Shown here: positions 5,986 to 60,900 of the stretch, piece after piece
Layout of the letters: each line of letters starts with the position of its first letter
Numbering within the stretch: position 1 is the first letter of the stretch
Position numbers and translations under genes: made by a program
Assembly: GCA_024516035.1 (NCBI GenBank)
Contig: CM044963.1
Coordinates: forward strand, 29,729,877-29,793,876
Direction: 5' to 3'
DNA: 64,000 nucleotides
DNA from: Bactericera cockerelli
Lineage: Eukaryota; Arthropoda; Insecta; Hemiptera; Triozidae
The notes under the pieces: model-generated
Seen by the model: the letters and a program-made list of their open reading frames with translations, nothing else
Database searches by the model: none
What the model was told of the DNA's origin: nothing

Positions 5986-6554
5986 TTAAACACCTTTGTT
6001 TCCCATTTTAACTTTGGATGTCATATAAATTCCAACAATAAGGCCAAACAGACCAATGGCACTACCGAAAATTTCTACAATTAAAATTTTCACAAAAAGA
6101 TTGGAGTTGGCAGCATCAGCCAAAGCTGCTCCTGAGCCTACAATTCCAACAGCCATGCCACAGAATAAATTGACAAGACCTACACTGAGGCCTGCACCAA
6201 ACATAAGGTAGCCTCCAAAAATGTTCCGCTTTAGGGTGTCAGCATCTCCAAGTGCTTCATTGTACTGTTCCAACTGTCCCGACAGGACAATGGCAGTGAT
6301 CAATCCATAAATGGCAACGGCTTCACAGAAAATAACAGAGATCAAGTTTTTGGTCTTGATTCTTGGTGCTTTCACTCCACCACCAATTATACTGACTCCT
6401 ACAGTGTGAATGCCAAGCGCAGCACCCACAACACTCAATGCAACGGACAGAGCTATACCCAGTGTTGCCCACATGTATGGTGATGTGGTTGCAAGGAACC
6501 ATCCCACATTAAGCTTGTCACCTTGATCTGTGAGAGTGTAGTAGAGAGATACAC
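5986..6554 (-). CDS. ATP6V0B: ATP6V0B coding exon 2 (last)
   Basis: Carries residues 19-207, including both conserved membrane glutamates. An in-frame ATG at 6573 lies in the intron, so the open frame starting there is not the true start. The splice acceptor at 6555-6556 and the 18-residue exon upstream give a better N-terminus. Confidence 0.94.
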
Positions 6555-7475
6555 CTGAAATAAGAAAAAACAAAATAAATATATTGTTAAAACATTTCTT
6601 TTATATTATTCTGTAACCAATATCTTCATGATGTAGTTACTAAAACAAGTTCAGATTTTATCTCACATTGACAAAAACACAACATAACCCTCAGGGTACC
6701 ATTAAATTCTATATTGAGTGCAGAAAAATAATGCATAAAACCTAGGCAGGTATAACTTTAGAACACAAATTACAGAAGAGTGCTTTAACCACCACTGATG
6801 TTTGATTTGCTTTGATCAATGATTAAATTTGACCAAAAGCAAAATAAGTGGTTTTGGTTATTTCTTTTGAAGTGGTCACCTTGGACTAGTGGTAGCACGG
6901 TTATCTTATACTCCAGGTGGCCTGGGTTCTGAATTTTTTCAGCTTGGTACTTTGGATGTTTGTGCCTACCCTAGCCTTGTGAGAACAATTGGTGTAGTGG
7001 GCAACTACCAGTGGTGGCGTTACATGATTGATATTGGATTATGATGGTTGGTTGGAGCTATGATGCATTATCAATAGTTCTCATCAGGTCAATGCTACAA
7101 AAATTGTGATAACTAATATTGTGATAACTGATAACTAAAATATAACACATAACTAAAAAAGTTATCATATTTGTGTTTATCACTTTCATGATATCACATT
7201 TACTAAAACTCGCTTTACTAAATCTATGCTGAAATCAGGACTTGAACCACTGAACTCCAGGTTACTAGTCCACTGCCTTATCGATCAAGCTATTGAAATC
7301 GGTACAGATAACTAGCTCTTTATGTTTTTAATCTCATTTTAAAAGAAGCTCACACCTTACTGTGATGTAAGGATTGTGAGGCTGAAGTGGAGTTGTGATA
7401 AGAGATTCAACATTTCTTACCTGTTACTCCTGCTGTAAGTGTCCCTAGGGCCGTGTACAAAAGAGTTTGACGCAT
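5986..7475 (-). CDS. ATP6V0B: V-type proton ATPase 21 kDa proteolipid subunit c''
   Basis: This is a proteolipid of the membrane V0 rotor, which carries protons across endosomal, lysosomal and plasma membranes when the V1 sector hydrolyses ATP. Coding exon 1 is 7421-7475 (18 codons plus one base) and exon 2 is 5986-6554. The intron has a GTAAG donor and a TTTCAG acceptor, and the joined codon is GGT. The product is 207 residues, normal for the family (about 205-212). Diagnostic stretches are [26 protein letters not shown] with the likely proton-carrying Glu96, [21 protein letters not shown] and [16 protein letters not shown] with Glu179. The usual hydrophobic helices are present. The Met at 7475 starts a hydrophobic N-terminal helix, as in homologues. 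No break is seen. The gene is head-to-head with UBE2S about 2 kb away. Identification is near certain. Confidence 0.96.
6860..7090 (+). repeat. Diverged tRNA-like SINE in the ATP6V0B intron
   Basis: GACTAGTGGTAGCACGGTT resembles a box A and CCTGGGTTCTGAATTTT a degraded box B. A body with GTGGGCAACTACCAGTGG follows. A related head occurs near 28025-28145. The family is not one of the lettered ones. Confidence 0.4.
7195..7315 (-). repeat. SINE family B in the ATP6V0B intron
   Basis: In reverse complement: CTTGATCGATAAGGCAGTGG head, GGTTCAAGTCCTGATTTCAG T-arm and the AGTAAAGCGAGTTT tail. Several substitutions mark it as an old copy. Confidence 0.7.
7421..7475 (-). CDS. ATP6V0B: ATP6V0B coding exon 1
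   Basis: A 55-base exon encoding [18 protein letters not shown] plus the first base of Gly19. It ends at a consensus donor (ACAG/GTAAGA). The hydrophobic start matches the first helix of subunit c''. It was found by following the acceptor of exon 2 upstream. Confidence 0.85.
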
Positions 7476-24770: not shown

Positions 24771-27700
24771 TCATCACATACACACAACCATGATATTTAT
24801 TTATTATTCTAATAATATTTTAATCTAATGACATTAGTAATTTTGTAAGTGAAAGATCATGTTTAATATGGGTATCTAAATGATATCTATTAGTTATTGG
24901 TAGATGGCACAAATTACAGATACAATCATCATAGTTGGTATGAAAATTTTTAATATTGCATATTTTATGGTGAAATCCATGTGTAGTGTATCTGGCTAGA
25001 AGGTGTCAATTTGTTTGTCCATGGTTTTTCCATATACATGTTCTAAAGATGGGGCCATCGGTGAAGTTATTGATGGTGAAGTCCATGTTTTTCTTTTCAA
25101 CTGCATTTCTATATTTTTGAATTTCTTCCCATTTCATGATGTTGCCATATTTCTGGATCATCTCATTTCCACAGCGTTCTGTACCCACCATATGTAGGAC
25201 AAGGGTATTTGAGGAATTTTTATGAAGCCCTAAGCCTTTCTTGTAAAATTTGGCCTTAATTTTATCTAGCTGTATAAGGTTATTGCACGTGATGTCTTGT
25301 GCCAAGACTCCAAAACTGTATGTAACTGCGGGTTCTATTTTGATCTTGTAGATTTTGTGTATTGTGTTGAGATTTAGTTTTTGCATATGTTGTATTGATC
25401 CAATAGCATGACTGGCTTTGACACTCTTTGTTGAGATATGTTTACTTATTGTGAGAGTTGGTTGCATTGTGACTCCAAGGTATTCATAGACATTTGTGTA
25501 TTCTAACTTTACGTTATTGAGAAATAGATCATCATCATGTTTCAGATGGCCACCTTTTCTAAATTTCATAGATTTGGTCTTGGATAGATTAATAGTGAGA
25601 GTGTTTTGAGTGCACCATTCTTGAAGTTTATCTAGTGCTTTTTGCAGGGCAATTCTATCAGTACTATATATTACTAGATCATCTGCAAACATGATGACAT
25701 CTATGTTTCCGATTTGTTTGAGGGTATTAGGAATATCTTTTATGTAGAAAAGGAAAAGTGTTGAACTTATAGGATCACCTTGTATGACTCCTGTGTCCTG
25801 TTTTATGGCCTGTCTTGCTGTTTCGATGCCATTATCCACCTTGACCAGGTTTGACGATATTATATTTTTGATGCTTTTTAACACTTTTCCTTTAATTCCT
25901 GCTCTGTTTAATTTTGTCAATAGTTTAATACGGTCTACAGTATCAAACGCTTTTTGGAAATCTACAAAAACACAATATGTGGATCCTTTTGGTTTTTCTA
26001 GGTTATTTTTGATGTCTGATCTAAGAATTCTAATAGCTTGTTCACAATTTTTATTTTTTCTGAAGCCAAATTGTTCTTGTGGTAAAGTTGTATCTAAATT
26101 TGACATTATTTTATTATTTAATATTTTAGTGTATAATTTGTATGTTGTGGACATCAGTGCAATTCCTCTGTAAGTGTTGGGGTCCAAGATATTACCTTTT
26201 CCTTTGTATAGAGTTTTTAATGTTGCTGTTCTCCATTGTTCAGGAATTTCATTTTTATCGAGAAGTGTGTTGAGATATATTAGCCACCAATCTTGCAGGA
26301 AATCAAATGATAGTTTTATGTGTTCATTAAAGATGTTATCCATGCCACAAGCTTTCTTGTTTTTTAGTGATTTAATAGCTTCTGTAAGTTCACTGTAGTT
26401 GATGGGTAGGTTGTACCATGCATCATCATTGCATTGGTTATTATTAGGATCACTTTCATTACATGATTCTTCACTACGATATTGGTTCTTTGAAAGAAGT
26501 GCTTTGAAATGTTCTTGTAAAATGTTGATATTTATTGTGCTAGGAGAGAGATTTTTTTCAAACATTTCCCAGGGTTTCAGGATAGCTTCTTTACATTTTT
26601 CTATAATCATTTTTTCTTCGTATGCAGCTTTTTTATCTTTGATCATCTGTTTGTATTGTTTTCTTAAAATATGTTTGGTGTGATTTGAGATATTGTATAA
26701 CATATTTGTGATGTTTTGATGTTTAAGTTGTTTACAGGTTTCATCAAACCAAGGCTTGTGTATTATTTTTTTCTTTTTATTTGTCATTGTTGCTTGTATC
26801 AATATTTTTGTGACTCTCTTGATGTTATCAACTTCTTCTGGACATAATAATCTAGTGTCTGGATTATTATGTATTTTAGAAAGATCTAACTGTCTTTTTA
26901 CTATCCGTTTATCCTTTCCTTCAGCCTTTCTTTTTTCATTATTCCCTTTCTTGATTCTCACCTCTACCATCACTCTTTGATGTTTCTTTAGTGGATCTAA
27001 TAGTATTTGATATTTTTTTAGAAGTTTTGTTACATTGGTTTTTATAAAAATCAAGTCAATGCAACTACTTCCATTATGGGCTATGTATGTTGGTTTGGAT
27101 GGTTCATTTAGTAATCTGAAGTGATTATTGCTCATGAATTGTAAGAGAATATCACCTTTAGAATTTTTTGTATCTATTCTGCAATTGAAATCACCCGCTA
27201 CAAAACAAGTGTGGGAATCTAGTGATTGTATGTCTTCAGTTAGTTGCTGAATGATGTCATCTATCTCTGTATCAGGATTAAAGTAATAACAGAGAATATT
27301 TCCATAACAACTTTTGCATTCAATTTTATTTGTTTCTTTTATGATAGAATCAATTTTGAGGTTAGGTTTAGAAAGAATTGTAACACCTCCTATGGGTCTA
27401 CCTTTTTCAGGTTTTTCAGCTAACACTGTTATGTCATAATATCCTGGTATCTGTTTCGGTACTTTTGTATTAAAGGTTTCTGTTAAGAATACTAGGTCTG
27501 CATTTTGAAAAGGGTCTTTGTCAGGTGAAGCTTTCAATGTGTTTTCCATGCCCTCAATATTCCAATTCATGATTTTTAACAGGTCTGTTTTGTTGTTCTT
27601 ACCCCTTGATCTGGTTTTTCTGATGGTACTTTTGATCAATTCCTTGTTGTTTTTCAGTATAGAAGTTGGGACATGAGTGGGACATCAGTGGATAAATGAT

Positions 27701-41032: not shown

Positions 41033-41649
41033 TAGACATAGTGTATGTACTGTTAAACTTATAATTAGGAGGTTATGGTCAGGAAGTCATATAACATTTC
41101 CAATAATTTTACGACTTAAAATCAGTAGATAATAATTCAGACATGTCAAATGTGCTTCGATTTTTTTTTTCTCTCTCTCCCTGATAAATATGAGTACCTA
41201 TAATTCAAAATGATGAGTACAATTTAAATTAATTACTTCCTAAGTAAAGTCCAAAAAATTTAAATTAATTATGGATGCTTGTGAGTTCAATATTGTAATG
41301 TATGTTACTCTCTTTAGTTCAATGACCTCTCATTAAACATTTACTGAGTATCGCCGAGACAGTTTTATTCATAAAATAAAAAACACAAATAACACACAGA
41401 ATCTTCTGTCTTACAGCAAAATCACTCAAAGTGAGATCAACTTCATGCCAGCATCTCCATGCCAACAGACATCAAGCTCACGAAATTTCCAACTTGAAAA
41501 AAAATTCTATGGTGTTCTCACATTTTCTTTACAAGTCCTCTGTTTAGTAACTATTGAAATAGTACCTTGTTTTTAATTTGACTCTTTAAATCCCATTTTA
41601 GTCATGTTCATGTGGAAGCGTCCTCAAAACATTTTCCCACCGACCGCGC
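41033..41649. other. Intergenic DNA, no gene seen
   Basis: AT-rich, no coding signal. This is the region beyond the minisatellite downstream of choline kinase. Confidence 0.45.
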
Positions 41650-42540
41650 TTGGTTGAGATCATCTACATGCTAGCCCAGCATTCACATGCCAAGGAGATC
41701 CAATCCTCATGACAACGCTGCACTTGATTAGCCCAGCATTCACATGCCAAGGAGATCCAATCCTCATGACAACGCTGCACTGGATTAGCCCAGCATTCAC
41801 ATGCCATGGAGATCCCTTGAGTCAATCCTCATGACAACGCTGCACTGGATTAGCCCAGCATTCACATGCCGAGGAGATCCCTTGAGTCAATTCTCATGAC
41901 AACGCTGCACTTGATTAGCCCAGCATTCACATGCCAAGGAGATCCAATCCTCATGACAACGCTGCACTTGATTAGCCCAGCATTCACATGCCAAGGAGAT
42001 CCAATCCTCATGACAACGCTGCACTTGATTAGCCCAGCATTCACATGCCAAGGAGATCCAATCCTCATGACAACGCTGCACTTGATTAGCCCAGCATTCA
42101 CATGCCGAGGAGATCCCTTGAGTCAATTCTCATGACAACGCTGCACTTGATTAGCCCAGCATTCACATGCCAAGGAGATCCAATCCTCATGACAACGCTG
42201 CACTTGATTAGCCCAGCATTCACATGGCAAGGAGATCCAATCCTCATGACAACGCTGCACTTGATTATCCCAGCATTCACATGCCAAGGAGATCCAATCC
42301 TCATGACAACGCTGCACTTGATTAGCCCAGCATTCACATGCCAAGGAGATCCCTTGAGCCAATCCTCATGACAACGCTGCACTTGATTCTATTAAGAGCA
42401 ACTGGATGCCAGCTCAGCATTCGCATGCCAGGAAAATCCCATACGGCAATCCTTCTGACAATATTGCGTTTGATTCCATTGAGATCATCTGCATGCTGGG
42501 CCGCTATCCGCATGCCAGCCCAGCATTCACATGCCAGGGG
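41650..42540. repeat. Minisatellite, 57-bp unit, downstream of choline kinase
   Basis: About twelve units pair AGCCCAGCATTCACATGCC with GACAACGCTGCACTTGATTA. Units are 57 bp, or 66 bp where CTTGAGTCA is added. Both are multiples of three, so several frames stay open on both strands, but these frames are by-products. Degenerate units extend to the choline kinase stop codon, so the array probably lies in or near its 3' UTR. Confidence 0.88.
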
Positions 42541-42544
42541 GGTC

Positions 42545-42658
42545 CTATATGTCCATCCTTGTAGTTGCCTTGCGTTTCACACCGTTGGATTCTGTGGTCT
42601 CGGGACATAGTTCATCTTTCAGCCGGTAGTAGCAGCCCAGTCGCTCTAGACCGTAATC
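42545..42658 (-). CDS. CHKA: Choline kinase last exon
   Basis: After a CCTGCAG acceptor it encodes DYGLERLGCYYRLKDEL and then a short polar tail ending TTRMDI and TAG. The first part matches the C-terminal helix of choline kinases (FGY.DY...R...Y...K). The tail is lineage-specific. Confidence 0.9.
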   Translation of the reverse strand, partial: DYGLERLGCYYRLKDELCPETTESNGVKRKATTRMDI

Positions 42659-45249
42659 CTGCAGGGAAGAAACAATAAATTTTTAACTTAGAGAGGAATT
42701 AATATAATTAAACACTTTATTAGATATAAAAAGACATATGTACCATACAAATAATTATTATACCAATGAAAAAATGGAAAATAATAAGCACAACAAAAAA
42801 GAAAAGAAAAATACAAAAAGTAGATATGAAAATCGACCCCCCCCCAAATTTAAATTTAAAGTTCTCTTTTTAATAACAATGAGGAAGAGGTTAAAAAATG
42901 TAGATTTGGGAAAAGGTAAAGTGAAAGAAGAATTAAGCATTACCGCATTAGAAAGGTTCTCCTAGGATCACCGAACCTAACCAACGTCCAGTGTGATGAA
43001 GACTTCGTGATGCTGGCATTCCGGACCAACCCCGGCTGGGTGAGGTTATTATTATGATATCATGCTTCATTAGAAGGACATACATTACAATATTTATAAA
43101 ATAAAATAAATAATAACGAAGAAAATAATAATGTCCTAACTAAGGGGCGGGGTTATTTGTTTTTTCTTTTCATTATTTATTTAAATTCACAATATTTCAT
43201 CAACAATATCGTACATCGTTGGTTGTTTTGAAGTATAATTTAGAAAAGTAAAGAACATTGTGGATTATTGTTGAGTGGAAGAGATTGCCATAGGCAATAA
43301 CCCCGCCCTTTAGTTAGGACATGTGTTACAGTATATTTTTTCATTCTTTTTCATTGTTAAAATATTTTTTGTATTGTACATATGTCCATTTATATGTAAA
43401 AGTGTTGAATAATAATAAGTGTGGTTGGGTGAAATTTTAATTTTTGTTTGTGAGTATCTTGCGAGTTGAAAGTGTCGTTAAGTAAAAAAAAAAAAAAAAA
43501 TACCTACACCATCACTTCTCTACTAGCCAGCCTCCGTGGCGTAACAGTTGTGACTACTGCCCGTCGTCCAGAGATCCCGAGTTCGATTCCCGGTTGGAGC
43601 AGACTTTTCGCACAGAAAATTCTGTTCCCTCCGAACATGTGAGGCTGGCAATTCCGGCCCTACCCAGACTGGGTGAGGTTAATGTGGGTAGCTCGTACGA
43701 TTCCCAGCGAATGGAGGGTAAAACCCCCGTCCTGTCTACCTCAAGTCAGGACGTTAAGACCAAATAGAATCAATGGACATGAAAGGAGCCTAGACATTGG
43801 ATCCGGGCGTCCATGTAATCCTCTCACCAGGTTAAGACTTGGATGGGTGACCATTCAAATTCTAATTCTCGTGACGCTGGCTTTTCCCGGCCCACTTAGG
43901 CTGGGTGAGGTCAATGTGAGTAGCAGGTTTGTGAGTTTCCTGCGAATGGAGGGTAAAACCCCGTCGTGATATGACCATGGCAGTTGAAAGTGACGTTAAA
44001 CCCCACTAAAAAAAAAAAAAAATCCTCTCACCACCGTGATTTAGGTATCAATACCTATCTCACGGACACGGAATTATTATTATTATTATTACTCCTCTAC
44101 TTTCCACCACTCACCCAGTAGCCGAAGGGAATCTCCGAGTTCTCGTCGTGTACGAAGGACCAGAGGGCCCAGAAGAAGTGAGACGCCATGGTGAAGTGCC
44201 TCACCTCCTCCAGCACCGTATCCACAGCTGTGGTCTCCTCACTCATGCGGGACAGGTAGGTCTGGATGAACTGTCTCTGCAACGAGAGACAAATCAAATA
44301 AGTTTATTTAGCCAGCGTCGATGGCATGTTGAATACACCGGTTCCCTTCAGAACACCGAAGTTAAGCGACATCCAGCGAGGTTAAGACTTGGATGGGTGA
44401 CCATTCAAATTCTAATTCTCGTGACGCTGGCTTTTCCCGGCCCCACTCAGGCTGGGTGAGGTCAATGTGAGTAGCAGGTTTGTGAGTTTCCTGCGAATGG
44501 AGGGTAAAACCCCCGTCGTGATATGACCATGGCAGTTGAAAGCGACGTTAAACCCCACTTTAAAAAAAAAAAATAAATAAGTTTACTGTGACCGTCCGCC
44601 TCCGTGGAGTCCGTGGCGTAACGGTTGTGACTACTGCCCGTCGTTCAGAGATCCCGAGTTCGATTCCCGGTTGGAGCAGACTTTTCGCACAGAAAATTCT
44701 GTTCCCTCAATTAGCTCGAAAACAGCTGTCCAGGTATATTCTGATATTCTCACTTTTCTGATTATACTGATATAATGATGTGAGGCTGGCATTCTTAGCC
44801 CTACCCAGGCTGGGTGAGGTTAATGTGGGTAGCTGGTACGATCCACGGCGTATGGAGGGTAAAACCGCCGTCCTGTCTACCTCAAGTCAGGAGGTTAAAA
44901 CCAAATAGAATCAATGGACATGAAAGGAGCCTGGGCATCAATAGAATCACCACCGTGATTTACAAAGCCTAAAAAACTTGGCTTCTTTTTCCAACGGTAG
45001 TTTTTTGGGGGATATCAATACTTTTTGTAAATGTCTATCGGAATAAATTTTAGGATTTATGGAACTTGGCTTCTTTTTCCAACGGCAGTTTTTTTGGGGG
45101 ATATCAATACTTTCTGGTGATGTACATGAATGAGTATCTAGCTCTGACGAGGATGTTTTTTTAAGGATATACCTAACATTACTTTAATGAGGATATACCT
45201 AACATTACTTTGGATTTCTAATATGAACCTGATAACAAATAATGAGGAT

Positions 45250-45281
<32 letters not shown>

Positions 45282-48200
45282 GAGGTTATCAATTCTGCCT
45301 TATCGGAATTTGACTCGGTTTTGTCTTACTACTGTGTGCAGTGCATCATCACTACTTACTCTCATAGTTTGCGACATCGCGCAGTCCCGTCTCACGGTGT
45401 AGTGGGGGAAGTGTTTGCTCGAGTAATCGTACATAGTCTCCACGAAGTGGTTGGCAATGTCGAAGGCCCGGTAGTTGTAGGAACAGTACTCGAAATCGAT
45501 GACCACCAGATCTATGTTGTTGTTGTTGTTGTTGTTGTTCTGGGACTCGCGGTAGAGAATGTTGCCCTCCTGCAGATCGTTGTGGCAGAACACCACGGGC
45601 GAGTTGATCTTGACCAGATGTTTCCTGGGAATATAGGATGGTGAAATATAGTTAGTTATCATGGGGGGAAAAATTATGTGGCACTGCAAAATAATAGCAT
45701 GTAGAAATTGTTTTGAAAATTCATTATGTAATTTTAGAAATATTGTTTAACTAACTTGCATCCCAACCTTTATTGTAAACTCTTATTGAGAATATAGGTA
45801 CAACTATATTTTTCTTCAAAAAAAAAAATTCTATTCTAGTTAGTTATCATAATTATAATATTGATAATACTCTTTGGTGGAAGGTAACCGCCAGGCGAGG
45901 TTAATGCTCAAAGCATTCCATGTTTGTCTTATTTTTTCTTTTTTCAAATTTTCGTGTGTTTTTTTTTTTTTAATCTAGGATAAGGAAGTATTTTTTGGCT
46001 GTCGTGAGAGCCACACGCATCTTTAAGAACGTGCGTATTACTTGGTTATTAAAAATGTATAGTTCTTTCAAAATGAATTAATTTTAATTTTGAGTTATAC
46101 CAGTGTGTAGAGAAAGTGTTTTTCTTGAAAACAATATTTTTTTAAAAAAAAAATCAGATGTAAAAAACTGCTAAAATATCTTACTAACAGTTGTAAATTT
46201 GTGAATTAATTTAAATATTTTTGTGTTCTGTGCCTCAAAGCTGCGTGAGTTACGTAAGTCATTCAACCTAGGTCAGTGACCTTGAACCTTACCTCATTCA
46301 TTCAGTGGTATCTGTATTATACATACACATGTAAATAATAGATAATTGTACATAATAGGTACATGGATTAGTTCTATCTGATAAAGATAAAATAACAGTG
46401 TGATTAGAAGAGAGCCTCTCTTCCAATACGCAGCGTTTCCTAAACTGGTTGAGGGACACTGTCCCTTACATGAAAGGGGTGACTCAAAATGAGCGGTAAG
46501 GATGAAGAGGAGATGAATCAACAGGATTACACACGAGATGCAGAGAACGGTAAGGAAAAAAAACATGCATGAAGGAGATTCCGATGGGAAAAATGAAAAT
46601 GAAAGTTTACAATCTATTGAGGATTTAACAGAAGCAAAAAATGTATTAGGTAATAAGGAATATGAAAAGGGAGTACCATTTTTCAGCCGCAGCAATCTTA
46701 CTCCTAGGAGTCCGGTAGACACAGCGGAGACTCCCGCAGGGGTACTCGACCTCAGTGCCGTAGCAAAAAATGAAACTCCTAAAAGAACTAACTTGGCAAA
46801 AAAAAGGAGATTAACATGTTCACCGGAGTGGGACACTTGTATGGATGAATATCGGAAAACAGTAGAAAAGATCTGTAGGAAGTCCGACATGCTAAATAGA
46901 CTAACAAGGGAAAACAAAAATACGAAAAAGGAAATAAAGGATGTAATTAAGTCACTATCAGATATTGTGAAAGATGTAAGGAAAATAGAACAAAATTGGG
47001 TACAAAAGTATAATGAAGAACTATTCCCTTCTCTAGATTCTTCTCTTGAATACATGGAAGAGGATGAAACAACAGAAGGGAACAACGAGGAAGATGTAGT
47101 GTCAACTACTAAACCAGTTTATTGCAATAAGTGCAATATTATGATAAATAAAGAAAAACATGACTTAGATAATATTCATACAATGATAAAACAATTGGGA
47201 TGCCAACCGGCAGAGGAAGAACTATACGAACTGTTGACCATAGACTGGCCTGATCCAGCCTTCTGCAATACAGAGAAAAAAGAAGGAAAAATAACAAAAC
47301 AACCACCGGAAAAGACTAAAGTTATATTGGTGGAAAAAGAAGAAGCAATTAGATTAATGAATAAAGAAGTAAACTGGATAGAAGAGTTAGTAGAACAAAA
47401 AGGAATTTTGAGAACCGCCAGTGAACGTTTAAACAAACCAATTTTCTGTGAGAAAAAGAATAGCTTTAAGGTGCTAGGCGAAAATAATAACATAGAAAGT
47501 CCACATAAAAAAGTATTTTTGATGGCGATCGAGAATAAATTGGATAGAAAAAATTTACTGGATTTGTACAATGCAATTAAGATAATAGGGGAAAATATTG
47601 CCATGGAAAATGAACTAAATGTAACTATAGCAGGAGTTTTTGATGAATCTGTTGCAAGAAAGATGCTAGAACTAGTATTTATAACACAAAAAATAAAATC
47701 CACACTCATTATTCCGAGTGTAGGGAAAAAACACGTAGATAAGAATACAGAAGCAATCATCATCAGGACTGGAGAGAATACCTATGCAGACATGGCTAGA
47801 AAAATTAAGGATGGGATCAAGCCCGAGACTTTGGGGTTAAACATAAAATCATTTAAAGAAACAAAAGATGGAGATGTTCTTATTGTAACAAAAATAGGGG
47901 AAGCTGGAACTTTAAGAACAGAAATTGAAAAAAAATTGAAGACGCCCAAATAGAGAATAAATTTGGCATGGAACAGGTGAATATTCTGGACTTAGATCCT
48001 TCATGTACAAAAGAAGAGATTACGGATGTAATCAGTAACACAATAGAAATTCCTAAAGAATTTATTAATGTCAAAAACCTTAGGTCAAATAGACGGGGAT
48101 GCTCGATTGCTACAGTAGCGCTTCCAGCAATGGATGCTGATAAACTAGCGAAAGTAGGCATGATTAAAGTTGGATGGATCTGGTGTCGAATTAAAACCAA

Positions 48201-51200
48201 GGTCACCATAACCAGATGCACCAACTGTCTTGAAGTTGGCCACTCGACTATTTATTGCAAGAGACCTCGCGACCATAACAGGAAATGCTTCAACTGCTCG
48301 CAACCCGGACATATGGCTATAGAATGCACTAGTGAAAAATACTGTACTAAATGTCGCATATCAGGACATAGAAACGATACCTTTTCTTGCCCTTTCTATA
48401 GAGAATTGGTACATCAATAAAAACACCATCATGACATCACAACCTATAAAAGTAACACAAATAAATATGAACAGATGTCATATGGCACATGATCTTCTAA
48501 AGAAAAGAGTCGAAGAAAACAAAACAGATGTGGTTATAATTAGTGAACCTAACTATAATAGAATAGGAGAGAACTGGTATGTGGACAGTAAGAAAGATGC
48601 TGCAATTTGGGTAGTTAATAAACAAATTACAATCTCAGATCAAGCTAAAGGGGAAGGAGTTGTCATGGTTCGTGTTGGGAGTGTACTTATATTTTCTATC
48701 TATGCTAGCCCCAACTCACACACTTTGACCAATATTTTAGACCAAACGAGTGCCATGAAGTCTTCAAGACCAGGAATTCCCTCTGTAATAGGTGGTGACT
48801 TCAATGCCAAATCCCCAGCATGGGGATCAACGAGACTAAATAATAGAGGCATAGAAATGACAGAGTGGATAGGATCCGAAAACTTAGTATTGCTTAATGA
48901 TGGGATCCTTCCAACTTTTGTCAGAGGACAACAGCAAGCCTGGCTAGACCTCACAATCGTGTCAGAGGGATTGGTAGTATACACTGAGGATTGGAAAGTC
49001 ATTGAAACAGAGAGCGGATCTGATCATCAATATATCGATTTTAAAATTAGTAAGGGAGCTCTGGGAGATAATCGGAAATATTGGAACGAAACAAAAAAGT
49101 CCAGATGGAATACAAAAAATATAAATGTTGAGGCTGTTGAAGAAGGATTCATTCAAAGGTGGAATAACCGGACGTCAGATTCAGTTGAAGAATTCATCAC
49201 CTCAGTTGTTAGTGGTTGTAAAAAAGGAATGGTGAAGACAAAACAAGCAAAGAAAAGACCAGTACACTGGTGGAATGAACAAATTAGCAATGCCAGAAAA
49301 AATACGATTAAAGCTAGGAGAAAATTAACGAGATTTAGAGGAAGAAACCGAGACATACAATTAGATGATACAACTTTGATGAATGAGTATAAAATAACAA
49401 AAAAGCTACTACAATCAGAAATTAAGAAATCCAAAAAAATGGAGTGGAAAAAGCTGTGTGAAGAGGTCCAGCAGGATGTATGGGGAAGAGGATTCAGGCT
49501 GGTCATGAAAAGACTGCAGAAACCTGAGGCAGTTGCCCCGGAACTGATGGAGCGAGCCATACAAGCTCTATTTCCAGACCATGGAGAGACGGAATGGGCG
49601 AGTGAGAATGGGGAGGAGATAGAGACAGGAGAGGAATTTACTGTAGAGGAAATAATGGCGGTGGTGTTAGCTACAAAAACAGGAAAATCGCCGGGACCTG
49701 ATCTAATACCTCCAGAGATTGTGAAAATAATATGTTTTAAATTTCCAGATGTAGTACTTAACATAATGAATGCTGCACTTAAAAATTCACAGTTTCCAAA
49801 GCAGTGGAAAATTGCAGAGGTTGTCTTGATCCCTAAGAGTGGCAAAGATAATACCAACCCAAACTCATACCGACCGATCTGCCTCATAAACACCTTTGGG
49901 AAACTGCTAGAAGGACTTGTAACAAAACGACTGACAGAACATCTGGAACAAAACAACAAACTATCGATCAGACAGTTTGGTTTTAGAAACGGTAGGACAA
50001 CCTGTCAAGCAATAGAGGCTGTACAAAAATTGGCAGAAGAAGAATTGAGAAAACCCAGCAGATCGAGGAAATTTTGTATCATGGTGGCGTGCGATGTGGC
50101 TAACGCGTTCAATTCCGCGCCTTGGCAGGCCATTCTAACAGCTATGAAGGAGAAATTTGTTCCACAATACCTAATAAAGCTTTTGGAAAACTATTTGACA
50201 GACCGGAAGCTGGTAACAGCTGACGGGAAGGAATATAGCATGACAGCGGGCGTCTGTCAAGGATCCAAAATTGGGCCGACCCTCTGGAATTGTCTGTATG
50301 ATGGTGTCCTGAACTTACAAGTAAAGGAAGATGTAACACTGGTAGCATTCGCCGATGATCTGGCAGTTATAGTGAAGGCAAGAACAGAAGAGGAAATAGA
50401 ACACAAAACAAATGACACTCTAGAAAAGATACGAGGATGGATGACAGCCAACAAATTGACATTAGCACCGCACAAAACGGAATTTATCAACCTAAGCGGC
50501 AGAAAAAGAACCAGACCTCTCCAGATAAAAATACAAGAATCAATTGTAAAAGAAAGTCAGAAACTTCGATATCTCGGAGTTTATCTGGACCGATCTCTTA
50601 CCTTCGGAAAACACATAGAGGAGGTTACGGAAAAAGCTCTGAGTACAGTTATGGCATTGGGGCGAATTTTACCAAGAGTGGGCGGAGCAAGTGAAGACAA
50701 AAGAAGATTATACGAATACGTATGCCAATCAAAAGTGTTGTACGCCGCCTCCAACTGGATCTCAGTACTTAAGTACAATAAATTTAGAAAAAAAATATTG
50801 AGCACACAGAGACAAATGGCTATGAGAATTTCCCGGTGCTACAGGACAGTTGGAACGATGTCAATTTTTGTTCTGGCTAGATCGATTCCATGGGATCTAT
50901 TGTCAGAAGAAAGAGTTAGAACTATTGGAGGAGATGATGAAAAAAAAAGCAGAAGAACGTAGGGAAACAATGGCAAGACTACAACTAAGATGGGAAATAG
51001 AAACAACAGGACAGTGGACAAAAAAATTAATTCCATACATAGAACCATGGTTCTACAGAACTCATGGAGAGATAGATTATTACATGGCTCAGGCAATGTC
51101 GGGACATGGATGCTTTATGTATTATTTACACAGATTTCACATTACAAATTCGAATTTATGTATATACTGTAGTAACAATATCGATACCTCATACCATACT

Positions 51201-51448
51201 TTATTTGAGTGTATAAGATGGGAAAGCAAAAGAAGTGATTTAAATATTCAATTAAAAATTACACTGACGGCAGAAAATATAGTTGGAATCATGCTGGAAA
51301 GTCGAAACAATTGGGATTTAATCAAGAACTACATCTCTGGAATACTGAAGCAGAAGAATAAAGATATTGATAGATGGAAACAAGAGACAAGAATTCAAGA
51401 CCCGGACATAAGTAACGATGATCTCAATGACATACCATCTTAGTTATT

Positions 51449-51489
<41 letters not shown>

Positions 51490-51961
51490 TAGGTGATATT
51501 TTCACATATGTATAAGGTGGTGGTGATATGGAGGTGATGTGATGAGATAAGTAAGAGTAAGCGGAGGATGAGACAAAGTGTAACAAGAAAAACTGTATGA
51601 AAGATAGTACCTAAATGATTCATAAACCTAATTATAAAAAAAAAAATGTACATAGATAATAAAAAATAAACACTAACCACCTGTGAATGAGTCCTTTTAA
51701 AAATGTAGAAAGTAATTTAGGTAGGGAATTAGACATAAGTTTTCCCTGTGGAGGGAGGAGGGGGGAGGTGGCAGCACCCCCCTCCTCAACCTACAGCCCA
51801 TTTCCTAAAATTATTATGTACATTTGAGTCATTTGTATACTTTAATAACCATAGGAACAAGTAGATTTTAAATTTGTAAGACCATGCACATGTGGTTAAT
51901 ATATTAAGTATATAACTATGTACATTAGTATTACTGTATTAGAAAGAGAAAGAGAGAGAGT

Positions 51962-51997
<36 letters not shown>

Positions 51998-54900
51998 AGG
52001 AGAGAGAGAAAGAGAGAGAGAGGCAGAGAGAGAGAGAGAGAGAAGAAGAAAGAGAAAGAAAGAACAGATAAGGAAATAGAGAAAAGCAACAGGCCATGAA
52101 ATAGATAATGTATTGTATTGTATTGTATTGTATTGTATTGTATTGTATTGTATTGTATTGTATTGTATTGTATTGTATTGTATTGTATTGTATTGTATTG
52201 TATTGTATTGTATTGTATTGTATTGTATTGTATTGTATTGTATTGTATTGTATTGTATTGATGAAGGGGCCATATATTGTAATACTCTGTCTGAGGAAGG
52301 ATGCATCTAATAAAGAACTGCCCTGAAGTAATATCTTGTATGGTGCCGGGGCAGCCTCTTTCGTGTGTATGATGGATGATGAGGGGGGTTTTTAGTGGGT
52401 CGGTTTGCATCATCCTGAGAGGGTCCTCTACCCTTTCCGAGTGGTGTACATCATCCCCACACTGTCTATTGTCACTACGACAGTATTCGTCCTAATCTCA
52501 GCATTAACACTCACACTCCAATAAGAGTGGGAGTTTTAATGTTGGGAGTAAGAGAGGATTTTACCTCCCGGGCATCCCCACCCAAAAAAAAAAAAAAAAA
52601 GGATAAGGAAGTAATTATTTGGCAGGTGAAACCATCATTATCTCTCATTTCCTTTGATCCTAACTGCTTTACTTCTGATGTTAAATGGCAGATAATGCCT
52701 AAAACATTACAAATTACATGTATACCTAATTATACACTTTAGTGGAAGGTAACCACCATCGCCAGGCGAGGTTAATGCTTAGAAGAGCATTTTCTACCAC
52801 CTAACCCTCAGAGTCTTATTGTTATGTGGTCACAAACTCAAATTAATGAGGACAAATTCATGCATTGGCTGGGATTCGAACCAACGGGTCCCTCCCTACA
52901 CTACCTGGATCACATCAAAAAAAAACACATCAAATCAAATAAAGGTCTAGTTTAGTTTAGTTCAGTTTTAGGCTAGTATATAATTAGTCCATAAACTGAC
53001 GTTGTACACATTCGACCACGAATATTTTATTTTCAATAAAATGATTTATTATTATTAATGATACAAAAAATGTCACAGGCCATCCAAAGGGGCAATAGCT
53101 CGAGCATCAGAGGCACGCTTCCTCTCGGTAGTGAGCTCGAAGAAATATTTTACCTTTGAAATACACCTAAGTTTGATATGAAATATAACACAATTCTTTT
53201 TTATAATTATCATTATTATCTAATTTTTACCGACCTCGGTAGCTTGATCGATAAGGCGGCGGACTTGTAACCTGGAGGTCGGTGGTTCAAGTCCCGGTTT
53301 CAGCGTAGATTTAGTAAAGCGAGTTTGAGTAGTTGTGATATCACGAAGTGATTAACACAAATATATTATCTAATTTTTACTATTTCTCTTACTTGAGCCA
53401 ATCCGCCTCCTTGTTCAAATCGTGGGACATGATCTTCTTGACCAGACTCTTCTATCTTTTCATTAACCTCTTAGTACCTTCTACGTTATTGTTCCAAAGT
53501 AGGTTTTTCAAAAAAAATCAGATAAAGGTCTAATGTTTACTATATTTTATATCACAAAGACTTCGTTCAATGAATTTGTGAAGGAGAATGAGCCCGCAAT
53601 GCTGGCTGCATTCCCCTTCTGAATGGCCAGGCTTAGACGCTGGCATTTTTACTATTTCTCTTACTTAAGCCAATCCGCCTCCTTGTTCAAATCGTGGGAC
53701 ATGATCTTCTTGACCAGACTCTTCTGTCGCTTGTTAAACTCCTCCATGAGAGTGCCTCCTTCGCTAGAAGCATTGGGGGCGAGGGCGGTGGACCTGGGGA
53801 TTGAAAAAAAAAGAAGTTATTATTAAGATAAGTATCATAACTTTTGAAAATAAAATCTTAAGGAAAATATACGGTCCCACTCTAGAGGACGGAATCTGGA
53901 GAATCAAACATAATCGAGAAATAAGGACACTCTACAAAGAACCAGATGTGGTATCAGAAGTAAGGTATAATAGACTTTGGATGGGCAGGACATGAGAGAA
54001 ACAATTTTATTTTTATTTATTTAACAAATAAAATGAACTGCCAGTCTTTAACTGGTTGCTTGACACACAGCATACTCATCAAAAGATCTTGCCTTCATTT
54101 TTTTTCATTGATGTTTATTTATTTCTCAATTTGGTATGTACAATTGTACATATATATTTTTTATCCATGTATGTGGTGTTGTAGGATTCGGATTGAATTT
54201 TTTATGATGGTTTCACTGATTTCTTTTAATGGCTTTTTTTGCAAGTTAAAATGCTCGAATAAGCTGATGACAGTATTTCCAATGGCTCCTCTTGAACCGA
54301 ACCACAAACCTATGACTTTGTATTCTCGGGATGGAAACTTTTCATTATATTTCTCTTCTAGGAACGGAATGCATGCCTCGTATATTTCTTTTTTTTCTCT
54401 GTCTATTTTATCGCCCTGTTCTTTATCATTTGATTCAAATCTAACGGTGGGGTCCAGGATATATGCATTTTTACAGTTCTTTGGAAATGCTACAATATCA
54501 CAGAAGCGCCTGGAACCATGTGAGTCGACACAGGAGACTTCTTCAAAACACTCGACATTCTTTTCTTTCAACAGTTCTATCAGTTTTCTCTTGACAACAT
54601 GATGACGAGAAGTTACCATTTGTTCATTGTACGGACATGCACCCAGTACATGTGGTAGTGTTTCCTTCTCTCTGTTGCATCTGCGACAGAGGTTGGATGC
54701 ATTGCCCGTATTTTGAACTCCTGGAACTCCAGCCAGACTTGCATATCCGACGTTCATCTTGATTGCAGCTGTCCACTCGGATGAAGAGAGGGAGTTTTTG
54801 TCCATGATGAAATTATTGGACTGTGGAAATCCTTGAAAGTGAGTCACTTGACCTTGGTATTTTGCCGAACACCACTCCTGGAATGATCGTTGCCGAAGTT

Positions 54901-57900
54901 GTTGTCTAAGAGACTGAGATGTTTCACCATTCACATTTAGTTTTTCTAGACACTTTTTGATATCATCCTCAATGTTGAATGAGCAGTGGAGGAGTTGGTC
55001 GGGAATGTTCTTCAACTTTTTAGCAATGGAAAAATGTTGCAGATAAGCTTCCCATTGAAAGTTTACAATTGCCAACCCTCGCATCTTTCGAGGGGCATAG
55101 AACATGGAATTGACTGTATGTGCTGGGAGTCCTACAATAGCCTTCACACTCCGTCTTATAATGATATTCAGGTTTTCAAACAAACTATCTGGCATTTTCT
55201 CCAATGGTACAATTTGCAGTGTATAGGTGAGTGTCGGAAACATGTATTGATTGATGATGTTTAGTTTCTGGTCAGGTTTCAGGAGTGGTGACGCAACAAG
55301 CTTTGAGCAATTCTTTGTGAAAACATCAACTACGTCATGATCAAATATAATATCTTCATTGAATAATATCAACAATGTGTGGAAAAACATACCACATGGA
55401 AAAAGATCTAAAGGAAGACCCAAAATGAGATGGTGTGACCAAGTTATGCAAGATATTAGAATATGCAATATGACAATTGATGCTGCGATGGACAGAAACA
55501 AATGGAGGCACTATATAGGCGAGGCCAAATACCGACTTGGGTATGAGTGGTCATGGGAGTAAGAGTAAGTAAGTAAGTAAGATAAGTACGAGTATTCTCA
55601 AACTATCTGAGAAGCTTAAACTTAATAATTAGATAACAAAAAAATAAATAAATCATTTGTTTTTTTTTTTTTTTTTCTTCAGAGGACCCATCCTAAGCCA
55701 TTTTTATTTGGCTAAGATGAGTGTTGCTTTTACATATTAGGGGAAAAACATTCAGAATTTTATTTTATATTAGGTTTTGAAGAAAATCAGAAATTTGAAT
55801 TGAATTGTAATTGAGAATGTTTACCTCCTCGAATATGCATTACAATACGAGTATTATACATCATCATACAGTAGGTGTTATTTAGTAATAATTATTATTG
55901 TAAAAAAAAATATTAGTAGATAGTTCAGCTTGAAGTAACTTTTCCACACACAAAGGGCCCAATGTGGCTGAGGTGTATACTTGTATAGGCAACCCAAACC
56001 TATAAGAAGACTTGGCTTTATGAAATGAAGATAAGATAAAAGTTATTCCAAAAAAAAAATAATACAGTCGAAACTGGATTATATAAGAGGAACTTCAAAA
56101 TTTCCGGGTTTAATTATTAAACTATTCTTTTTTTTTTAAAGACCTAATCAAATAAATTTAATACAGTCGGTGGTTCAAGTCCTGGTTTCGGCATGGATTT
56201 ATTAAAGTTTGAGTAGTTGTGATATCACGAAACTGATTAACACAAATAATAACCAAACTACTACATAAAGTTGAAGGAAAAAAATAATAATATCACCTTA
56301 TTTATACTGCCCGATTGGGATTTTAAAGTCCCATTATTCCAGCAGTAAGCCCAAGACGTATTATTATGTGGTAAAAATCCTTAATGGAATTAAAACTTGT
56401 CATGTCCCGGCTGGATTTCGAACCCACGACCTCTGGAATCTTTGGATTCACAGAGTGCCGCCTTTACCACTGAGCTACCGGGACAGACAGAGAAATGGAG
56501 AAAGAAACCACTTTACATACAGGGTGGACATAGTTTACATACCTCTTCAGATACAGGGTGCACATAGTTTACATACCTCTTCAGATACAGGGTGCACATA
56601 GTTTACATACCTCTTCAGATACAGGGTGAAGATAGTTTACATACCTCTTCAGATACAGGGTGCACATAGTTTACATACCTCTTCAGATACAGGGTGAAGA
56701 TAGTTTACATACCTCTTCAGATACAGGGTGGAGATAGTTTACATACCTCTTCAGATACAGGGTGCACATAGTTTACATACCTCTTCAGATACAGGGTGCA
56801 CATAGTTTACATACCTCTTCAGATACAGGGTGCACATAGTTTACATACCTCTTCAGATACAGGGTGGACATAGTTTACATACCTCTTCAGATACAGGGTG
56901 GACATAGTTTACATACCTCTTCAGATACAGGGTGGAGATAAGTCGTATTTTTCTTTCTAACTAAAAAAAATTTCCTGGTTAGGTTTTTTTCCAAATATTT
57001 CCATTTTATTCCAAGGTCATTCGTGAAAGTAAAATGCGTTTGGTTACTTTTAAACATAAACAATGGACTTAACCTATAATAGAACTGAAAGCAAGAATTT
57101 TCTTCCACTTTGGTTAACTTTGGAAGTGGAAATTTTTCCTCTTCCAAAAGAAAAATGACTTGCTTCCAGTTTGGTTCATTTTATTCCCGTTTGGTTAACT
57201 TTGGTTAGAAAGAAAAATACGACTATAGTTTACATACCTCTTCAGATACAGGGTGCACATAGTTCACATACCTCTTCAGATACAGGGTGCACATAGTTTA
57301 CATACCTCTTCAGATACAGGGTGCACATAGTTTACATACCTCTTCAGATACAGGGTGGATATAGTTTACATACCTCTTCAGATACAGGGTGCACATAGTT
57401 TACATACCTCTTCAGATACAGGGTGCACATAGTTTACATACCTCTTCAGATACAGGGTGGATATAGTTTACATACCTCTTCAGATACAGGATGCACATAG
57501 TTTACATACCTCTTCAGATACAGGGTGCACATAGTTTACATACCTCTTCAGATACAGGGTGCACATAGTTTACATACCTCTTCAGATACAGGGTGCACAT
57601 AGTTTACATACCTCTTCAGATACAGGGTGGTTAGCCACCTCTGGATGGTGTCCCACAGCCAGCAAGGCTCCTTCACCACCGGGATTTGCATCAGATGAAT
57701 GTCGGCCATTTTTTCGGCAATCTTCGCGCTGATTCGGGGATCTACGAGCTCGGGAACCGTGAGGGATCGGGCCTGGGGGAAGAGGGGAGGACTTTTATTA
57801 GTACTTTCTGTATTAATTCAGAATACAATTTCATATCTTAATATATAAATGTCAAAGTCACTGACTGACCACTCACTGACTGATCATCGCTCTACAGCCC

Positions 57901-60900
57901 AAACCGTAAGTCCTAGGAAGCTGAAATTTGGTGGGTAGCTTTGTCTTATAGTCTAGATGTGCAATAAGACGGGATTTTTCGAAATTCCCACTACAACACC
58001 TGCCATTGGCGAAAAAGGACTTTTTGCTTTCACGGCCATGCCTTGGCCCGCAAAGCGGGCGACAGCCCGCTAGTAACAATATAATACATACATCTTAATA
58101 TATAAATGTCAAAGTCACTGACTGACTGATCATCGCTCTACAGCCCAAACCGTAATACCTAGCGAGCTGAAATTTGGTAGGTAGCTTTGTCTTATAGTCT
58201 AGATGTTTCCCACTACAACACCTGCCATTGGCGAAAAAGGATTTTTTGCTTTCACGGCCATGCCTCGGCCCGCAAAGCGGACGACAGCAAATAAATATAA
58301 ACAAATGAAATGAAATGAAAAATATGAAAGTTTCAGCATAAGGATAATGATAATCTTCTTATTACCTCGTGAGGAAAAACCGTACATAAGTTTTTCTTTC
58401 TTTCTTTATTTTTTTCTGTCTCTTATATTGTATATTAATTTGTAATTATCGGTGTTGTATATTATTTGTCTAAATTAGTGTTAAATAATAATGATATTAA
58501 AGGAAATCATGCTTGAGACATTGCTCAGATGGCGTTTTCTGTTCATAAATACAACTGTAAGCCTTCAAAAGCTCTATTAAAGTTTTGAAAACTTTGATTT
58601 TATCGCTATTGGTCTGTGCGTGAAGGCATAATTTCATTAGTCTGTCTCGGTAGCTCAGTGGTAAAGGCGGCACTCTGTGAATCCAGAGATTCCAGAGGTC
58701 GTGAGTTCGAAACCCAGCCGGAACATGACAAGTTATCCTCCCATTTGGGATTTTTACCGCATATCAATACGTCTTGGGCTTACTGCTGGAATAATGGGAC
58801 TTTAATAGTCCTAATCGGGCAGTATAAATAACGCGATATTATTATTATTATTTTTTCGGCCATGCCTCACACACTTACCGGAAAAAATAAATAAATAAAT
58901 AAAATAAAATAGCCCTTATTGAACAAATAATCTACAAAACATTTGAAACAGTATTACAATATACAAATAGGAACAATTTTTCTATTTGTATATTGTAATA
59001 CCATGAAATTGTTTTTTAGGGATAAAAGAGTAATATTGACTTTTTCTTTCTATTTACTGCTCCCTTTTTTTTTCTCCTAATTTTAAGTTATCAACAATTT
59101 CTTCATGCTGGCTGAAGGCCTTACCGGAATATAAAGTTTTAAAGTTATCATATTTGTATGAATCACTTTCGTGATATCACAACTACTCAAACTCGCTCGA
59201 CTAAATCTACGCTGAAACCGGGACTTGAACCACCGAGCTCTAGGTTACAAGTCCGCCGCCTTATCGATCAAGCTATTGAGGTCCGATCATTGAGGTCGAT
59301 TACTTTCTTGCCTTGTGTTATAAGTATTTATTATTTTATTATTGTTAAGGATATATATTTTTGTTTTTGTAGTTGCTAGGTAGGATAGGCTTAGAAAGGC
59401 AAAAATAATATTGTATTTAGTTAGAACTGGAATAATTTCCGTTTATTGTATTGTAAATAAATAAATCACTCACCGGAATATACTCCTCGATTCGGCCACC
59501 CGGGAAAACCCCGTGCAGGGTGGGCCCCAGTCTCCTCTCCGACAGCAGAGTGAAGATGACTGAATCGGTGATGATCGACTCTAGCGCTCGCTCGCCATGC
59601 GTCTGCCCGTAGATACGAAGCAGCACTTCGCGTGGTTCCGCCGAACTTCGGGTTTTTCCGTACGCCGCCTCGACCACTCCTCGGGTGTTTCCGTCGCGAC
59701 TCAGCGGCGCGGGCGCGGGAGGGGAAAGCAGGGTCACGTGATAGAGCATGTTGGTGAGGCCGCCACTGGGGAAATGTGAATCAGGGGGGGGAGGAGAGGG
59801 GTGATGAGACAATGGCGAGAGAGGGGGGGGCGAAGGGGAGGGAGGGGGTCGATGGAGGTGTGAAATTATTGTGAGGCAGAGAAAAGTTGTTGATTTTTTA
59901 ATTTTTTATTTTATTAATTGAAAAAAAAACCTAGATCAGTCAGTTTAAGACTATTAAGCTTCAGATCAATAATTAAAAACATCAAAACACTACAGTTTAA
60001 TAAAGAAGAAAACCCTAGATCAGTTTAAAAAAAACTAGTGCGGACAGATCAATATTAGAATCTTACAATGAACGCATTACAATGTCATAAGTTGTGGTTA
60101 ATACCTGCAGCCGCCTTACCTTCTAAGTGGTGCAACCAGCCTGAGTGTGTGACAAAATTGACAGATACCTAATAGTATCTACAATTGTCTTTTTTATTTC
60201 AATTCAATAAAAATAATGATCTTTATTCTTGATAATTTACAAAATAAGTTTCTATGTTCTCATGAAGTACTGGTGTACTTTTCGGGAACTTCATTTCATT
60301 GTTTATATTATATGACCTTAGTACGGTCGTTTATGGCCAATCTAAATGAAAGAAAATCTTAATATTTAAAAATTATATAGATTTTCATTCATTTCTCCTA
60401 GAATTGTGCAGAACTTTTTAAGTCTCCTATTTATCTTAATTGTAAAAAAAACAAACAAAAACCTATAAAACAAAGAAAAATAATTCTAAAACCTCGTTTT
60501 TTTAGGCTGTGTATCATGATGAAATAGAAAATACATACCAGAAAAGATCAGAAATCTTTTTCCATGATTTTAAAAGACCAGAAAAAAAGATGAAGAGCCG
60601 ACAGTTACAAGAGATGGAAGACTTTGAAAATATTAGGAGTTAGATAGTTTGAGAGAGACAGATCGAAAAATAAAAAATCAAAATTTCGAGAGAAAAAAAT
60701 CTTTTTTGTAATAGGAAAGTCTCTTTTCCAGAATAAGGAAAGATCTCTTCTAAGTTATTACTAGATTTTGAGATTTTTCGAGATGTATACCTTATAGGGT
60801 ATATAATTTTTTTTTTTTTTTTTTTCTACAAAATGCAATGATTCTTCTTTGAAAGAAAAAAACACCTTTCTTTGATACAATATTGATATTGTTCCATTCG

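Follow-up and report, generated by a model that had tools for sequence, protein, structure and literature searches.

A 24-copy minisatellite at the 5′ splice site of a psyllid choline/ethanolamine kinase exon, a probable intron-exon mirage

Introduction

Minisatellite-like duplications of intron-exon boundaries were described in the globin genes and the Adh3 gene of amphioxus and were termed mirages (PMC3087553). Their units measure 10 to 72 bp in Adh3 and about 150 to 160 bp in the globin genes; they occur at both kinds of boundary and are unstable in length, and reverse transcription-PCR found regular splicing to be undisturbed by them (PMC3087553). Two human genes offer related cases. Intron 7 of the factor VII gene (F7) carries 37-bp donor-bearing repeats, of which only the most upstream donor is used (PMC6627357), and in IFI6 two downstream repeat units act as donors, so that three mRNAs are made (PMC4526556). 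In this report, we describe an array of the same kind in the psyllid Bactericera cockerelli, in which the 3′ end of a choline/ethanolamine kinase exon is repeated, together with its splice donor, in 24 copies. The array lies within 64,000 nucleotides of DNA (hereafter the window) that correspond to positions 29729877 to 29793876 of contig C9 of a 565-Mb assembly of 1032 contigs.

A preliminary description of the array knew of no splice donor that had seeded a minisatellite at this copy number. F7 intron 7, IFI6 and the amphioxus mirages precede it as cases of the same kind. The minisatellite in CTNS intron 7 was considered as a further precedent and is not used, as the consulted portion of its source states no unit at an exon boundary. 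We found no paper on minisatellites of psyllid genome assemblies; the search was not aimed at the term mirage, and no claim is therefore made that mirages are new to insects.

Results and discussion

The array begins at the real junction of the exon at 57772-57612 (exon B), which forms its unit 1. Each full unit consists of 18 exon bases (CACCCTGTATCTGAAGAG), one more than the 17 counted in the preliminary description, and 16 intron bases. The copy number and the place of the array agree with that description, while its ends, put at 56515 and 57628, lie at 56517 and 57629 according to Tandem Repeats Finder (TRF), and the 24 full units are followed by a partial 25th. Successive units are spaced 34 bp apart in 22 of 23 steps; the remaining step measures 321 bp, owing to a 284-bp element in unit 12 that had been overlooked and that divides the array into 12 and 12 units. 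The 31-bp cores of the units are identical in 22 of 24 cases, with single-base changes in unit 5 (C3T) and unit 11 (A25G). Nine of the 24 units, including the one split by the element, end in three bases other than GTG. The donor GAG/GTATGT (the slash marks the splice site) is kept in all 24 copies, so the 24 donors are identical over nine bases and the proposed 23 perfect or near-perfect decoys behind the authentic site are indeed present. The copy number of 24 is the value of one assembly.

A search for the 31-bp core with up to three mismatches yielded 24 matches in the window, compared with none in 100 shuffles, and 24 matches in the whole assembly, all of them in the array. The peptide encoded by the tail of exon B, TLYLKR, aligns with TLYLKN, ALYMKN and TLYMKN in three psyllid orthologues. 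Since the core occurs nowhere else in the assembly and the three orthologues conserve the exon tail, the exon copy is the ancestral one and the array is derived from it; these data support the earlier proposal that the array contains, and grew from, exon B's own donor. Collections with little or no insect DNA say little in this respect: exact core patterns had no match in viral_contigs and genome_contigs, the array region had none in the plasmids collection, and a tRNA-like short interspersed element pattern had none in viral_contigs. RNA folding of the unit gave a short hairpin, which had no shuffle control and is not used here.

The element in unit 12 is bounded by terminal inverted repeats and belongs to an abundant family with at least 54 matching pieces in the assembly (40 of 1518 candidates were scored). 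Compared with eight other copies, it carries four private substitutions in about 281 bases. The empty site that is left when the element is subtracted reads AACTATCTC (AACTAT-CTC), and the same unit ending is found in unit 18. Since the element-free site thus reads as the ending of unit 18, the element is younger than unit 12, and the array, or at least this unit, is older than the insertion. Other copies of the family measure about 284 bp and are 96 to 97% alike; A/T-rich 3-bp flanks are readable for the element in the array and for copies such as those at L002, L006 and L007, and at L004 copies of the family are nested and neighbouring.

The host gene lies on the minus strand of the window, with its first coding exon about 26 kb outside it. 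The closest proteins are the psyllid orthologues of Diaphorina citri (70% identity), Cyamophila willieti (67%) and Cacopsylla melanoneura (66%). Exon B itself matches structures of choline/ethanolamine kinases and is 83% identical to residues 123-176 of the D. citri protein (P0001); exons A to C match the Pfam choline kinase family (E = 1.1e-31), and all seven exons, including the first, match the orthologue. The earlier assignment of the array-bearing exon to a choline kinase therefore stands. Exons A to E can be joined into an open frame of 336 codons, and, as far as this frame and the orthologue matches tell, the gene with the array still codes and has kept its authentic junction.

To each of the 24 donors we joined the acceptor at 53793 and read nine of the products (donors 1 to 6, 12, 13 and 24). 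Donor 1 gave a frame that stays open over the whole of the known exons. All eight downstream donors read led to one common stop, 61 nt behind donor 1 and far upstream of the last known junction. Use of a downstream donor would thus give an early stop, and at the level of sequence the preliminary claims that downstream donors shift or stop the frame and that only the first one yields the full protein hold for every product read.

Comparison with the described systems shows that the array is, by its anatomy, a further example of the mirage kind. As in Adh3, BflGb6 and BflGb9 of amphioxus, there are many units with AG/GT signals, the unit spans an exon-intron boundary, and the authentic junction is retained in unit 1; the unit length of 34 bp falls within the lengths reported for Adh3. 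The two systems differ in host, a cephalochordate there and an insect here, and in the boundaries concerned, since 5′ and 3′ boundaries are affected in amphioxus, while the confirmed psyllid cases stand at exon 3′ ends and acceptor arrays were left unread. In size, the described globin arrays have 6 and 3 units in two haplotypes, compared with 24 units here and 57 donor motifs in another psyllid array. Splicing and length variation were assayed in amphioxus, whereas the psyllid array is known from its sequence alone. F7 likewise has downstream donor copies, although the exclusive use of the upstream donor is a reported fact there and a prediction in the psyllid. In IFI6, too, a minisatellite supplies several donors at an exon end; its downstream donors make three mRNAs, whereas the eight psyllid ones read end the frame.

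We looked in the assembly for runs of three consecutive donors spaced 16 to 46 bp apart and took the same pattern read backwards as the control. Counting matches, of which a long array contributes many, and setting them against control totals given without clusters, we obtained 3328 AGGTAWGT triples (1446 + 1882) versus 516 (269 + 247) reversed, 5586 AGGTGAGT triples (2714 + 2872) versus 605 (277 + 328), and 1056 triples (440 + 616) versus 276 (132 + 144) for the acceptor-like TTNCAGGT, a pattern that fixes only seven bases. The matches listed, all on contig C1, form at least eight AGGTAWGT clusters in its first 7.9 Mb, at least five AGGTGAGT clusters in its first 5.1 Mb and at least 15 TTNCAGGT clusters in its first 59.8 Mb.

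The upstream edge was read for all 13 donor clusters among the matches listed. An exon-like open frame preceded by an acceptor-like AG stands at the start of each of the five AGGTGAGT clusters and of three of the eight AGGTAWGT clusters (C1:2.168M, 6.91M and 7.885M). Four AGGTAWGT clusters of C1 (at 3.7 kb, 8.2 kb, 5.18M and 7.903M) have no exon in the sense direction at the array start, and the last one, at 6.538M, is intronic and lies about 50 nt behind an exon-like frame from which it is not derived. This last cluster (G000, C1:6538442-6538640; L072) is a 27-bp array with GTATGT motifs.

Homology backs the exon in two of the eight exon-seeded clusters. The exon at 2.168M matches the AREL1 HECT ligase (E = 2e-5, residues 1-41 of 42) and is followed by 57 donor motifs in the stretch read; that at 4.70M matches the PDZ domain of X11/APBA1 (E = 1.6e-31) up to its last residue. 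In the remaining six, the exon is deduced from its frame and is unconfirmed by homology: Pfam returned nothing for four distinct peptides tried from exon-like frames, the 7.885M peptide had a weak tropomyosin match below the cut-off (E = 0.042), and the 5.10M peptide had no match in PDB up to E = 1. The array at 4.769M (G000, C1:4766723-4769493) has 42-bp units, extends over about 2.8 kb and stands behind an exon-like frame without known homology.

A scan independent of donor motifs gave a local view. TRF was run on 144 kb around the gene (period 16 to 80, at least three copies) and returned 22 rows, two of which are the halves of the choline kinase array, with two further pairs having like units. 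Donor 8-mers occur in the units of three of the 22 rows, namely both halves and an array at L040. The latter (about 1850-2660) lies 70 to 80 kb from the choline kinase gene, has diverged first copies and stands behind a tail exon of myosin V, the match being to myosin Va (E = 1.3e-9, residues 1-46 of 47). Exon-edge arrays in the 144 kb thus number two, one being the choline kinase array from which we started. As a single word, AGGTAWGT occurs 47 times there (24 within the array) versus 8 times reversed, and AGGTGAGT 5 times versus 9. The same stretch holds a 19-bp satellite of about 159 copies at 130449-133472 (in L035). Collectively, the genome appears to carry many exon-edge arrays of the choline kinase kind.

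We consider it probable that the array is a mirage, a minisatellite that was seeded at the 5′ splice site of the exon and is tolerated through choice of the most upstream donor. A second exon tail and donor would have been set behind the first when 18 exon and 16 intron bases were duplicated in tandem, and slippage or unequal exchange may then have raised the copies to 24; the inverted-repeat element jumped into unit 12 later. Each new copy would fall behind the authentic donor, so that the coding exon stays intact, and, provided that the most upstream of identical donors is chosen, the gene would work and the extra copies would cost nothing. It is this duplication mechanism and the splicing behaviour that we infer; the arrangement of the units, the uniqueness of their core, the direction of growth and the place of the insert in the order of events can be read from the sequences compared, as can the presence of many like arrays in this genome.

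Several points weigh against this interpretation. Among strong identical sites, an intron-proximal donor can win. The choice of donor 1 is deduced from the open frame, the conservation of the gene and the F7 and amphioxus cases. In IFI6, downstream repeat units serve as donors (PMC4526556), and upstream choice is therefore no law and downstream use is possible; a paper on tandem splice sites also offers models of U1 competition as alternatives to scanning. Length instability is a hallmark of mirages, and the psyllid array is known from one assembly and a single place. Finally, homogenisation of the units was tested by counting changed sites, which were 2 of 744 in the cores versus 4 of 281 in the inserted element (Fisher p = 0.051), or 6 of 816 versus 4 of 281 when all unit sites were counted (p = 0.29).

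The preliminary description had suggested a rheostat acting through nonproductive splicing. In such a regulator, a share of transcripts would be spliced from donors 2 to 24 and removed by nonsense-mediated decay, so that the copy number would set the output of choline kinase. The nine-base identity of the donors would permit this, the eight downstream products read do stop early and upstream of later junctions, and IFI6 shows that downstream repeat donors can be used (PMC4526556). We nevertheless regard a regulator as unlikely: what speaks for it in the psyllid goes no further than motifs, the downstream copies in F7 and amphioxus are not normally used or do not interfere (PMC6627357, PMC3087553), and the presence of like arrays at further genes suggests a mutational tendency of the genome at large rather than a device of the choline kinase gene.

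Tandem duplication of AGGT-containing segments is a described route of intron gain (PMC3443670), and a path from mirage to intron has been proposed (PMC3087553), so that the array, whose unit contains AG/GT, could be taken for the onset of intron gain or exon creation. The tandem duplication of an AG/GT-bearing segment is common to both; in the psyllid, however, the duplicated bases lie across a junction that was already there, and a new intron is not found. Neighbouring AGGT copies are 34 bp apart, too short for introns, and the joined exons are open without one, which makes this a very improbable account. Still slighter is the chance that the 24 potential U1 sites within about 1.1 kb act as a sink for the U1 small nuclear ribonucleoprotein, as had also been proposed, or as a shield against premature polyadenylation (U1 telescripting), for which nothing beyond the motif count speaks. 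That the array is known from one assembly only invites the thought of an assembly or sequencing artefact; the ordered differences between units and the unique insertion of an element of a known family are unlikely products of such an error, arrays of the same kind are present at other exons, and we give an artefact equally little credit. Lastly, transposon-like elements are frequent around the array, but a dispersed satellite or transposon that landed beside the exon and became its end is next to impossible and was rejected as the source of the unit, given a core without any further match in the assembly at up to three mismatches and an exon tail conserved in psyllids.

A wider matter is whether minisatellites arise preferentially at 5′ splice sites. 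Donors are favoured by the surplus of matches relative to both the reversed controls and the acceptor-like pattern, with the acceptor clusters unread and the acceptor pattern perhaps a poor one. TRF arrays form a very dense background of about one per 7 kb. Assuming about 100,000 introns in the gene set and a 40-bp seed placed at random, the expectation is about one donor-seeded array per Mb, close to the eight exon-seeded clusters found in 5 to 8 Mb. The true density should exceed that of the listed clusters, because the patterns are restricted to triplets of exact donors, of three types and 16 to 46 bp apart. We tentatively entertain, without favouring it, the idea that hundreds of exons carry a donor mirage, several-fold above random sites or acceptors, through the donor sequence or a process linked to transcription or splicing. 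Random hits on donors in a minisatellite-rich genome would be one alternative; selection could be another, as extra copies do no harm behind a donor when the first one is used, while in front of an acceptor they might.

If minisatellites did arise preferentially at 5′ splice sites, this genome would be a natural experiment, over very many genes, on how the spliceosome chooses among identical donors, for which known cases are few (F7, IFI6 and the amphioxus genes). Arrays of identical donors make a clean test of the choice of the first 5′ splice site, sequence strength being equal at all copies, and many arrays at conserved genes, with a few to dozens of copies, would let RNA-seq address donor choice genome-wide. 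The genome could also serve to gauge the rate of tandem duplication at exon edges and the tolerance of donors versus acceptors. The single choline kinase array holds a smaller lesson, that of a good example of a described kind.

Other features of the gene and the window

Features are collected in Table 1. Two further duplications affect exon ends of the choline kinase gene. The end of exon C has a second copy, 97.6% identical over 84 nt (93% over 95 nt), and a 57-bp array stands behind exon F. Between the coding end and the next 57-bp unit, 27 of 45 positions match without gaps at offset 106, compared with no more than 25 at any other place on the strand, and the local score of 48 compares with a maximum of 25 in 500 shuffles. 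Of the six local duplications in 41600-59800, three include the 3′ edge of an exon or the end of the coding sequence and none includes a 5′ edge; at random placement, three of six has P = 0.00065 when only the seed unit is counted and P = 0.045 for whole arrays. Over the whole gene span including the first exon, three clusters out of 14 do so (P = 0.0445 when whole intervals are placed). Exon 3′ ends lie in local duplications in three of seven cases and 5′ ends in none of seven. A habit of this gene to duplicate its exon 3′ ends is no more than hinted at by these figures, which are post hoc and are not relied on.

Table 1. Coordinates of the array, the host gene and related features (window positions unless contig C1 is named)
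Feature	Position	Strand	Basis or remark
24 full 34-bp units, consensus CACCCTGTATCTGAAGAG/GTATGTAAACTATGTG, split 12 + 12 by the insert	56527..57629	-	TRF, unit alignment, core searches
Partial 25th unit CACCCTGTAT, then unrelated sequence	56517..56526	-	Unit alignment
Donor 1 (real), first intron base	57611	-	First bases of donors 2-24 run from 57577 to 56542
284-bp terminal-inverted-repeat element with TAT flanks, in unit 12	56941..57224	-	25-bp inverted ends, 24/25 matching
Exon A	59474..59765	-	Joined open frame and orthologue match
Exon B	57612..57772	-	Open frame from acceptor to donor; unit 1 takes its exonic part from the last 18 bases
Exon C	53665..53793	-	Acceptor 53794/53793 closes the array-bearing intron; joined frame and orthologue match
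Exon D	45360..45624	-	HNDLQ and IDFEY motifs; joined frame and orthologue match
Exon E	44115..44276	-	Joined frame and orthologue match
Exon F, last coding exon	42545..42658	-	Orthologue match; stop codon 42547-42545
Second copy of exon C 3′ end with donor	53373..53456	-	Lies 272 bp downstream of its source, 53645-53728
57-bp array behind exon F	41667..42559	-	Coding end (stop 42547-42545) in first, diverged unit
AGGTGAGT clusters at exon-like frames	C1:0.491M, 1.305M (mutual paralogues), 4.70M, 4.769M, 5.10M

Elsewhere in the window, two non-LTR (long terminal repeat) retrotransposon frames with endonuclease and reverse transcriptase domains were found at 25009-27684 (minus strand) and 48323-50959 (plus strand), and one open frame at 5989-6600 (minus strand) contains two ATP-synt_C domains.
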